Assembly (NCBI RefSeq): GCF_019801965.1
Contig: NZ_JAHVIA010000002.1
Location: 310,001 to 374,000, forward strand
Source: Salipiger bermudensis
Lineage (GTDB): Bacteria; Pseudomonadota; Alphaproteobacteria; Rhodobacterales; Rhodobacteraceae
Length of the DNA stretch: 64,000 nt
Direction: 5' to 3'
The notes beneath the pieces were generated by a model. That model did no database searches and was not told where the DNA came from. It saw nothing but the letters and a program-made list of their open reading frames with translations. Position numbers and translations under genes: made by a program. The stretch's first letter is position 1. Each line of letters opens with the position of its first letter. Positions 9,209 to 10,737 of this stretch are shown here, piece after piece.

Positions 9209-10183
9209 TCAGGGCCAGACCGGCGCGCCCTCGAGCCCCGCGGTCTCCGGCAGGCCGCAGATCAGGTTGGCGTTCTGCACCGCCTGCCCGGCCGCGCCCT
9301 TGCCGAGATTGTCCACCGCGCCGAGCGCGATGATGAGGTTGCGCGCCGGGTCGGCTGCGTAGCTGACGAAGCTGAGGTTTGAGCCGCTGGCCCACTTGGT
9401 CTGTGGCGGCTGTTCGGTGACCCGCACGAAGGGCCGGTCGGCGTAGAAGCGCCGAGCCGCGTCGAGGCAGGCTTCGGTGGTGGCGCTGCCGCGGGCATAG
9501 ATCGTCACCAGCAGCCCGCGGGTCATCGGCACCAGATGCGGCGTGAAAACCAGCCCTGCGGCGCTCGCGCCGCCAAGCTGCGCGATGGCGGTCTCCATCT
9601 CGGGCATGTGGACATGGCGGAGCAGTCCATAGGGCTGCAGGTTCTCGTTGCTTTCCGCGTAGCCGAAGCTGCTGCTCCCACCGCGCCCGGCGCCGGAAAT
9701 CCCGGTCTTGGCATCGATGATGATGTTGTCGGTGGCGATCAGCCCGGCCGCCAGCAGAGGTGCCAGCGCGTTCAGCGTCGCGACCGGGAAGCAGCCGGGA
9801 TTGGCGATCCGACCGAGCCCCTTGATCCGCTCGGGCCAGACATCGGCGAGGCCGTAGCCCCAGCCCTCGACATGGCGGTGATCGCCGCCGATATCGACGA
9901 TCTTCACCGTCTCGGGGACCCGGGCCAGCGCCTCGGCAGAGCGCCCGGTGGGCAGCGAGGCGAAGAGCAGGTCGAGCTCGGGCAGGGCCTTGGGATCGAA
10001 CCTCTCGATGACCAGATCGGCCAGCGCCGGCGGTACGCCGGGGAAGCGTTCCACCAGCCGGCTGCCGGCGGTGCTCTCTCCGGCGGCGTAGACCAGCTCG
10101 AAAGCGGGATGCCCGGCGATCAGGCGCAGCGCTTCGCCGCCGCCGAAACCGCTGATGCCGACGATGCCTGTGCGAATGCTCAT
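9209..10183 (-). CDS. argC: N-acetyl-gamma-glutamyl-phosphate reductase
   Basis: 324-aa NADPH-dependent reductase of arginine biosynthesis, converting N-acetylglutamyl phosphate to the semialdehyde. The N-terminal Rossmann start is GIVGISGFGGGEALRL. The active-site Cys is in NPGCFPVA. The conserved HLVPMTRGLL and a late DNLGKGAAGQAVQN are present, as in the common (type 1) ArgC. AAGGAA precedes ATG 10183. It is transcribed alone, and the 200 bases upstream on the same strand contain a putative Arg-rich leader ORF and terminator (see the entries at 10212 and 10281). In many relatives a second argC lies by rpsI-rplM, so this could be a paralogue. Confidence 0.93.
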   Translation of the reverse strand: MSIRTGIVGISGFGGGEALRLIAGHPAFELVYAAGESTAGSRLVERFPGVPPALADLVIERFDPKALPELDLLFASLPTGRSAEALARVPETVKIVDIGGDHRHVEGWGYGLADVWPERIKGLGRIANPGCFPVATLNALAPLLAAGLIATDNIIIDAKTGISGAGRGGSSSFGYAESNENLQPYGLLRHVHMPEMETAIAQLGGASAAGLVFTPHLVPMTRGLLVTIYARGSATTEACLDAARRFYADRPFVRVTEQPPQTKWASGSNLSFVSYAADPARNLIIALGAVDNLGKGAAGQAVQNANLICGLPETAGLEGAPVWP

Positions 10184-10211
10184 GGGAAATTCCTTTTCAG
10201 AAGGGGAACGG

Positions 10212-10242
10212 AAAACGCCCCCGAAGCCGAGGGCTGCGGGGG
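10212..10242 (-). terminator. Intrinsic terminator in the argC leader (candidate attenuator)
   Basis: Read on the minus strand: CCCCCG, C, AGCC, loop CTC, GGCT, T, CGGGGG, then CG and TTTT. That is a 6+4 bp stem with one mismatch and a U4 tract, ending 28 bases before the argC start codon. No recognised gene ends just upstream except small ORFs, so it either closes a short RNA or attenuates argC. Its 3' arm is perfectly complementary over 8 bases to minus-strand CGCCCCCG at 10279-10272, which gives a mutually exclusive antiterminator. Confidence 0.6.
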
Positions 10243-10280
10243 TCCGAAACGCGGGTCGATGCGGATTCTGGCGGGGGCGG

Positions 10281-10391
10281 CTAGAAAGCGCCGCTGAGGA
10301 TGCCGAGGGTCACGGATCGACGCGCAGCCCGAAGAGCCGCCGCTGGGATGCGGCGTCGGCGTCGATCAGGGAAGGTCTGGTGTCCGGACAT
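10281..10391 (-). CDS. Putative Arg-rich leader peptide of argC
   Basis: 36-codon ORF on the minus strand with eight Arg residues, five of them consecutive (codons 10-14, at 10364-10350). The stop codon (10283-10281) sits directly before the candidate antiterminator segment. A possible promoter, TTGACC (10428-10423), 17 bases, CATGAC (10405-10400), would start the RNA within a few bases of the ATG, so the peptide could be leaderless like trpL in rhizobia. There is no Shine-Dalgarno. Arg-rich chance ORFs are common in GC-rich DNA, so only its position relative to the terminator and argC supports it. Confidence 0.4.
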   Translation of the reverse strand: MSGHQTFPDRRRRRIPAAALRAARRSVTLGILSGAF

Positions 10392-10518
10392 GAACAAGGG
10401 TCATGTCGCCAAGAGCGCTGTCGGTCAAGTCGTATCTCGCCTGACCGTGCGGTTCGCTTATTTGGGCCGGGGCGCGCGCGGCAAGATGCGCGGCAGGAGC
10501 GGCCCGGCATTTTTGCGC

Positions 10519-10620
10519 TCAGAACCCTACCAGGGATCTGGCCGTGATACCGGCGGCGCCGAGGATGGGCAGAAGGCACAGGATGGCGGCGCCAAGCAGG
10601 GTCAGTCGAAAGCGGTTCAT
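10519..10620 (-). CDS. 33-aa hydrophobic membrane peptide
   Basis: A small ORF that reads MNRFRLTLL followed by a hydrophobic stretch (about residues 6-24: leucine, alanine, glycine, isoleucine, one Cys) and a short basic tail ending RSLVGF. GGAG lies 6 bases before the ATG, a good RBS. This looks like a single-pass small membrane protein or a short exported peptide. It has no homologue I recognise. It sits alone between the TerB-like gene and the argC leader on the same strand, with no clear terminator of its own. Confidence 0.45.
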   Translation of the reverse strand: MNRFRLTLLGAAILCLLPILGAAGITARSLVGF

Positions 10621-10737
10621 GGGAAACTCCCGGATCAAAAGGCACTTGAAAGAAACGAACGGCGAAAATTGCCTCGTTCCAGAGTGCCCGATGCGGGATG
10701 TTATGTAAAGTTTGGCGTCTTGCGACCTTGGTCGGTC

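Follow-up and report, generated by a model that had tools for sequence, protein, structure and literature searches.

We have identified, upstream of argC on the minus strand of the window (the whole 64-kb stretch of Salipiger bermudensis DNA that was analysed), a conserved leader that very probably acts as a ribosome-mediated transcription attenuator, tying argC expression to arginyl-tRNA. It shares with classical attenuators the consecutive codons for one amino acid (here Arg), an intrinsic terminator before the gene and a gene of the same amino-acid pathway. The main elements had been proposed in a sequence-only reading of this DNA, and re-reading the minus strand placed them where that reading had put them (Table 1). 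The downstream gene matches TIGR01850 with 278.9 bits against a cut-off of 233.6, and its product is an enzyme of the arginine pathway.

Transcription would begin at or beside the leader AUG, with a ribosome trailing the RNA polymerase. When arginine is ample, the ribosome would clear the Arg run and finish near the stop codon; behind it, the hairpin P1 and the long-range helix P0 could form and the antiterminator would not, and without an antiterminator the terminator would halt transcription ahead of argC. When charged tRNA-Arg is scarce, the ribosome would stall on the Arg run and cover the 5' arm of P1. The stretch of the ORF freed in this way would pair with the pre-terminator segment and the terminator 5' arm as these are transcribed, and with the antiterminator formed the polymerase would continue into argC.

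Table 1. Elements of the argC leader and their positions in the window
Feature	Position	Strand	Basis or remark
TTGACC, within the conserved promoter region	10428-10423 (region 10392..10428)	minus	sequence and conservation
Leader ORF MSGHQTFPDRRRRRIPAAALRAARRSVTLGILSGAF, 36 codons plus stop	10281..10391	minus	homologous ORFs in relatives
Stop codon of the leader ORF	10283-10281	minus	sequence
Five consecutive Arg codons, CGA CGC CGA CGC CGC, putatively regulatory	10350..10364	minus	also lie within the P1 5' arm
Hairpin P1 (OFF fold)	10315..10367	minus	fold prediction, ribosome at the stop codon
P1 pairing, GAUCGACGC with GCGUCGAUC	10367-10359 with 10323-10315	minus
P1 pairing, CGCCGC with GCGGCG	10355-10350 with 10343-10338	minus
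Helix P0, 5' strand GUCCGGA, first base the G of the start codon	10383..10389	minus	predicted in the free full transcript
Helix P0, 3' strand UUCGGAC	10242..10248	minus	most bases shared with the antiterminator in the ON fold
Antiterminator, 5' strand GCGG.GG....UUCGGG.UGCG.GUCGAU	10316..10343	minus	inside the leader ORF, 3' of the Arg codons
Antiterminator, 3' strand	10236..10260	minus	contains the terminator 5' arm
CGCCCCCG, antiterminator of the sequence-only reading	10272..10279	minus	poorly conserved
Intrinsic terminator, stem CCCCCG-C-AGCC-CUC-GGCU-U-CGGGGG	10212..10242 (stem 10242-10218)	minus	99.8% of cells paired in 58 leaders
Terminator tail CGUUUU (UUUU)	10215-10212	minus	sequence
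argC, N-acetyl-gamma-glutamyl-phosphate reductase, 324 aa, putative regulated gene	9209..10183 (ATG at 10183)	minus	TIGR01850

Taken alone, the Arg run is unremarkable in G+C-rich DNA: runs of at least five Arg codons occur 31 times in the window when all six frames are counted. ATG ORFs that reach a stop within 60 codons and begin 36-38 nt after TTGAC number two in the window, the leader ORF being one of them. A consensus scan of 9900-10700 returned two terminator-like sites against 0.6 expected in shuffles, one of them the leader terminator in a short form (10234-10217). Of the promoter-like pair proposed earlier, TTGACC is present and conserved, about 37 nt before the AUG at 10391, but no sigma-70-type consensus promoter was found between 9900 and 10700, so the promoter call rests on conservation. 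The free leader fold is not unusually stable (z of -1.26, with 20 of 200 shuffles equally good). Because the Arg run, the fold stability and the promoter scan are unremarkable, comparison among relatives had to decide. Further upstream, at 10519-10620 on the minus strand, lies a small ORF, MNRFRLTLLGAAILCLLPILGAAGITARSLVGF, with a membrane-like stretch and no NCBIfam match.

Leader homologues and the argC clade

From a scan of species genomes, which gave 247 argC loci, the best 80 were taken forward. Together with L001 and L003 to L018, and minus five duplicates (L003 = L044, L004 = L048, L009 = L045, L011 = L120 and L013 = L096), these make up 92 distinct loci. A first screen required an Arg-rich ATG ORF preceded by TTGA at 36-38 nt; 63 of 96 loci passed it, L018 being inspected separately. 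Removal of the duplicates L044, L045 and L048, of L103 (spurious) and of L017 (non-homologous) left 58 leaders for the alignment (A3), from which a covariance model (R1) was built. R1 added six leaders outside the screen (L073, L086, L088, L110, L117 and L118). Mean column identity across the 58 aligned leaders is 72%, and conservation, judged from this alignment, lifts the leader above chance.

Homologous leaders are present at 64 of the 92 loci of the argC clade and come from several Alphaproteobacterial orders. The sequence-only reading had named a lack of conservation of the Arg run or of either stem in related genomes beforehand as what would refute it; its Arg-codon leader ORF, its terminator before argC and the existence of alternative RNA folds are all conserved in relatives, and on this main point it was not refuted. 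Twenty-seven of the 92 loci, including two of the 14 in the genus of the window, are without a leader, which counts against the attenuator reading, and the remaining one, L017, is a look-alike. Locus L060 has just 370 nt of upstream DNA, so a leader farther away would be missed there.

In the genome of the window, R1 scores 133.8 bits at the leader and 21.8 bits at the next place. Under stricter filters, a class sample of 385 genomes gave a strong match in three (the window's own genome, G688 and G765) and some match at E up to 0.01 in 41. An order sample gave a match at E up to 1e-6 in 14 of 390 genomes, nine at 95 bits or more and five at 38-45 bits, and all nine of the former precede argC. 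The strong leaders examined immediately precede argC or a short operon containing it. The matches of 45 bits or less that were opened (L134, L135, L137, L140 and L177-L181) are, by eye, mostly lone terminator-like hairpins, with no adjacent argC start. Genome G765 also carries a second, partial leader copy (L161:2585-2682, 65.9 bits, model positions 11-146) that has no terminator; no gene was seen downstream of it on its own strand, and it looks like a relic.

One gene lies between leader and argC at L110 (2250-2434), L117 (2247-2425), L118 (2256-2434) and L073 (2351-2537), so the leader would control a two-gene operon at these loci. The intervening gene encodes a GNAT acetyltransferase in the first three (PF00583 in L110 and L117; L118 by similarity) and a SnoaL-like protein in L073. 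Neither was retained as a regular partner, as they occupy this position in just three leader loci and one, respectively; the leaderless loci L087 and L102 have a GNAT gene as well, there downstream of argC. Upstream of argC in L017 (G427, another genus) is a sequence that R1 does not match and yet has the same plan, with TTGAC 36 nt before an AUG, the peptide MSRTIFIRRRLCLAFARRR and then a terminator-like hairpin with a long U-tract. This could be an Arg attenuator that arose independently or has diverged strongly. Of the 25 loci L019-L043, none showed a convincing leaderless Arg ORF upstream of the normal, about 40% identical argC.

The argC of the window belongs to a separate clade. The same genome carries a second argC-type gene (L002, G000:C7:240714-241622), which was counted against the attenuator reading; it is 35% identical over the matched part and adjoins an ORF that, judged from translations, resembles tryptophan synthase alpha. 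The window type of argC occurs in 14 of 20 genomes of the genus and, at E up to 1e-80, in none of 41 genomes outside it. In a family sample of 394 genomes, 257 had an argC match at E up to 1e-45 and 137 had none at that threshold; identity reached at least 77% in five (the window genome, G007, G203, G427 and G065), and the other matches listed are 36-46% identical to the window argC. The best 80 of the 247 loci come from Salipiger, Paracoccus, Bosea, Methylobacterium, Reyranella, relatives of Roseomonas, Bradyrhizobium and a few Betaproteobacteria, at 76-85% identity.

In a tree of 90 argC proteins, with good support for only 26 of 87 inner branches and a bootstrap not yet settled, families are intermixed (Methylobacterium, for example, appears in several places), which points to horizontal transfer of the clade. 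Leader presence requires at least 12 changes on this tree (four forced by well-supported branches) against 22.1 in shuffles, with L059 and L018 left out of the tree and L017 scored as leader-bearing. The gene was also found on six of 72,556 plasmid records, including an Agrobacterium Ti plasmid, and the leader is present on three of these six plasmids. The three are L166 (NZ_CP120216.1, the Ti plasmid of Agrobacterium leguminum), L164 and L167; the Ti-plasmid leader has just two adjacent Arg codons.

Reading frame and Arg codons of the leader ORF

Measured from the AUG through the last Arg codon of the run, the length is 36, 42 or 45 nt in each of the 58 leaders, and the differences are multiples of three. 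The spacer that follows is 9, 8, 6 or 5 nt long and does not keep the frame, so the conserved RNA beyond the Arg run is read in another frame in 14 of the 58. Judged by this signature of length changes, the leader ORF is translated. The predicted peptides are 31-41 aa long, and no NCBIfam family matched the leader peptide. A functional small protein was considered and thought unlikely because the C-terminal half is read in differing frames.

An in-frame AUG and the distance to TTGA were conditions of the first screen, and leaders found by R1 alone were therefore also checked. There were 17 of these, of which L170 duplicates L109, leaving 16. The AUG is in frame with the Arg codons in 15 (L086 lacks a start), TTGA lies 36-37 nt upstream of the AUG in 14, and at least three Arg codons follow one another in 14, L166 having two. 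As the distance between TTGA and AUG is constant, the leader transcript was taken to be leaderless; the spacing suggests a transcription start at the leader AUG or beside it, in parallel with the trp leader RNA of Sinorhizobium meliloti.

The longest Arg run is five codons in 32 of the 58 leaders, four in 22 and three in 4, and just CGA, CGC and CGU are used. CGA accounts for 102 of the 260 codons in these runs; across 11 window ORFs it makes up 13 of 336 Arg codons. The enrichment could be caused by RNA pairing or by codon-specific stalling. The Arg codons also lie within P1, so RNA pairing could conserve part of them. The richness in CGA would likewise suit an attenuator whose signal is a general slow-down of translation, by antibiotic or stress, rather than arginine, as any stall near codons 10-14 would yield the same fold. 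We consider this very unlikely, given that the codons are specifically Arg (runs of three to five in 58 of 58 screened leaders and of at least three in 14 of the 16 unscreened ones) and that argC belongs to the arginine pathway. The conserved run, confined to CGA, CGC and CGU, makes codon-specific stalling directly testable.

Helices and ribosome position

Pairing was assessed on A3 by comparison with slid versions of each fold and with shuffles; the shuffle controls correct for relatedness incompletely, and the folds were derived from the same 58 sequences. In the OFF fold, 88.0% of cells are paired against 32-49% in slid versions, and 47 cells are changed on both sides against 28.4 in shuffles, a number that none of 500 shuffles reached; the 12 pairs with two-sided changes were equalled by 29 of 500. 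Helix P0, which joins the start-codon region to the pre-terminator segment and was absent from the sequence-only reading, is paired in 79.0% of cells (slid versions 19-55%) and has 23 cells with two-sided changes against 12.1 in shuffles, again with none of 500 as high. Its covarying pairs are less striking (six of seven, reached by 31 of 500 shuffles), and it is poor in nine Roseomonas-like leaders, with a mean of 3.3 of 7 pairs versus 5.9 in the other 49. The antiterminator hardly varies, with 91.4% of cells paired against 42-60% in slid versions. Its covariation score was reached by 5 of 500 shuffles, and it shows little covariation as such (three pairs and four cells, with 186 and 149 of 500 shuffles as high). 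An RNAalifold consensus of the 58 leaders, also considered, gave two hairpins with no pair changed on both sides, one of them an alternative hairpin within the antiterminator strand.

Base-pair probabilities were averaged over the 58 leaders with the region of the ribosome held unpaired, and consensus folds were derived from them. The stalled state was modelled either with the RNA covered all the way from the AUG to the leading edge of the ribosome ("all covered") or with the ribosome footprint alone covered and the 5' end free; sequestration of the terminator 5' arm was computed on transcripts without the terminator 3' arm. In the free RNA, or with the ribosome at the stop codon, P0 (columns 5-12 with 160-171) has a mean probability of 0.40-0.46 and P1 of only about 0.3, and the terminator of the complete transcript stands at about 0.85. 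With the ribosome stalled at the third Arg codon and the 3' arm still unmade, a long nested helix appears with a mean of 0.35-0.63 by part (columns 55-61 with 173-179, 65-70 with 164-172 and 72-80 with 149-160), which takes up the terminator 5' arm together with the segment used by P0.

In the all-covered model, mean sequestration of the 5' arm over the 58 leaders is alike in free RNA (0.28) and with the ribosome at the stop codon (0.29) and higher at Arg codons 1 (0.65), 3 (0.76) and 5 (0.67); a control with shuffled middles gave 0.49 free, 0.52 at codon 3 and 0.47 at the stop. The rise exceeds 0.2 in 53 of the 58 leaders and in 12 of 14 further ones (L164 and L174 fall below; L086 and L166 lie outside the computation). 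Antiterminator pairs go from 0.06 in free RNA and 0.01 at the stop codon to 0.55 in the stalled state. In the leader of the window the terminator has a probability of 0.91 in free RNA and 0.96 with the ribosome at the stop codon, falling to 0.37, 0.19 and 0.35 at Arg codons 1, 3 and 5. When the footprint alone is covered, mean sequestration is 0.46, 0.53 and 0.47 at the same three codons, with a rise above 0.2 at codon 3 in 32 of 58 leaders and a fall in one, antiterminator pairs at 0.35 and P0 re-forming to 0.22; the window at codon 3 reaches 0.74 (free 0.36). Outcomes thus differ with and without a free 5' end (0.53 versus 0.76 sequestration at codon 3). Within the model, the direction of switching holds, and its size depends on the 5' end being kept busy, for example by a following ribosome.

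At equilibrium and with the ribosome stalled, the terminator of the full transcript keeps a mean of about 0.65 when all is covered and 0.88 with the footprint only (window 0.69). As the terminator is favoured at equilibrium on the complete transcript, the switch must be kinetic, and the choice would be made while the RNA is synthesised, as in the usual account of other attenuators. The stalled fold of the window keeps a shorter 7-bp hairpin before the U-tract, which might cause weak termination.

The pairing partners are not those first proposed. The sequence-only reading had CGCCCCCG pair with the terminator 3' arm, but within columns 96-160 a match of at least 8 nt to that arm occurs in one of the 58 leaders, the window itself; the match is 7 nt in three other leaders and at least 6 nt in 20 of 58. 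We therefore rejected CGCCCCCG as a conserved antiterminator. The conserved antiterminator captures the terminator 5' arm, not the 3' arm, and together with the covarying P0 it fits better; the principle of that reading, in which a stall leads to readthrough and passage to termination, is kept. A short antiterminator of GGGCUGCG with CGCAGCCC exceeded 0.5 in at most 11 of 58 leaders in any stalled state and was superseded by the long helix.

Two other accounts of the terminator bear on these results. A ligand-binding riboswitch or a protein-bound leader could control it, the Arg-rich ORF being incidental. In favour of this, conservation of the RNA is high and P0, P1 and the terminator give it helices, the stretch beyond the Arg run is conserved as RNA and not as peptide, and the modelled switching is weaker when the footprint alone is covered. 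This account is nevertheless unlikely, as the AUG, the TTGA distance and the Arg frame are kept in 15, 14 and 15 of the 16 unscreened leaders, lengths up to the last Arg codon of the run differ by multiples of three, and the Arg codons are placed where a stalled ribosome would switch the fold. No Rfam family matched the leader, either in the window at the gathering threshold or in L064, L054, L012 and L119 at E up to 1, and no T-box was found in the window. It is extremely unlikely that the leader works in trans, as a small RNA made constitutively and terminated, with a minor effect on argC. Termination would release a discrete leader RNA of about 180 nt, and the trp attenuator RNA of S. meliloti acts in trans according to excerpts of PMC7298713; however, the strong leaders examined sit immediately ahead of argC or its operon, and the antiterminator pairing, which a small RNA would not need, is kept. 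Ribosome-mediated attenuation is our preferred reading.

Relation to known systems

Leader-peptide attenuators are textbook systems for Trp, His, Leu, Ile/Val, Thr and Phe. In T-boxes, the tRNA binds the RNA directly and there is no leader peptide. The argC leader is very probably an arginine attenuator, conserved, horizontally spread and probably leaderless, with a known mechanism, a new amino acid and an extra helix at the start codon. Among the matches listed in a search of the open-licence PMC literature, we recognised no description of an arginine attenuator of this kind, which agrees with the remark of the sequence-only reading that attenuation is not commonly described for arg genes of Alphaproteobacteria; a word search of PMC2965389 found neither arginine nor argC. 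If true, an arginine attenuator would fill a gap among the amino-acid attenuators. It would also suggest how Alphaproteobacteria without ArgR sense arginine: ArgR (PF01316) was matched in none of 41 genomes (that of the window and relatives in its genus, family and class), while the same search gave matches in 9 of 14 control genomes, eight of them over the cut-off.

A further-reaching reading, which we put forward tentatively and as somewhat less probable than its alternatives taken together, is that this arginine-biosynthesis attenuator is the first of its kind, that its leaderless start codon is part of the switch, and that the leader and a lone argC form a cassette serving as an arginine-responsive backup without ArgR. 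The first bases after the AUG would pair, as P0, with a segment that goes into the antiterminator in the other fold, and the outcome would be decided jointly by the stall and by whether the 5' end is free or occupied by stalled and following ribosomes. The terminated leader RNA would have its own start codon closed, and leader and lone argC seem to move together between orders and on plasmids. P0 suggests how attenuation in a leaderless RNA could be coupled to the state of its 5' end.

The closest parallels to a ribosome-mediated argC attenuator are other leaders with regulatory codons. Like it, the trpLE(G) attenuator of S. meliloti (rnTrpL/peTrpL) is alphaproteobacterial and ribosome-dependent, and its leader RNA starts with the trpL AUG (excerpts of PMC7298713 and PMC10117765); unlike it, that system has Trp codons, trpE(G) and a leader peptide of 14 aa, compared with Arg codons, argC and the longer peptides here. 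The uORFC-8-2 upstream of cysS in Rhodobacterales, the order of the window, has a conserved AUG, tandem regulatory codons at positions 14 and 15 and features of ribosome-mediated attenuation, as excerpted from PMC8632094. Its codons are for Cys and its gene encodes a tRNA synthetase, whereas the leader described here has Arg codons, precedes a biosynthetic gene and occurs in several orders.

Arginine itself is sensed through RNA in other ways. In Salmonella orf34-speF, consecutive Arg codons of the upstream ORF sense arginine by ribosome pausing, as in the mechanism proposed here; unlike the argC leader, that system uses Rho-dependent termination, access to the speF ribosome-binding site and RNase G, and it controls ornithine decarboxylase rather than arginine synthesis (excerpts of PMC6386406). 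The carA leader of Pseudomonas responds to arginine via ArgR and to pyrimidines via possible attenuation, according to the excerpt of PMC4997734. An excerpt of PMC1262725 lists histidine, threonine and phenylalanine as amino acids with attenuators, and tyrosine and arginine as ones with T-boxes; the arginine T-boxes resemble the argC leader in controlling arginine genes at the level of RNA.
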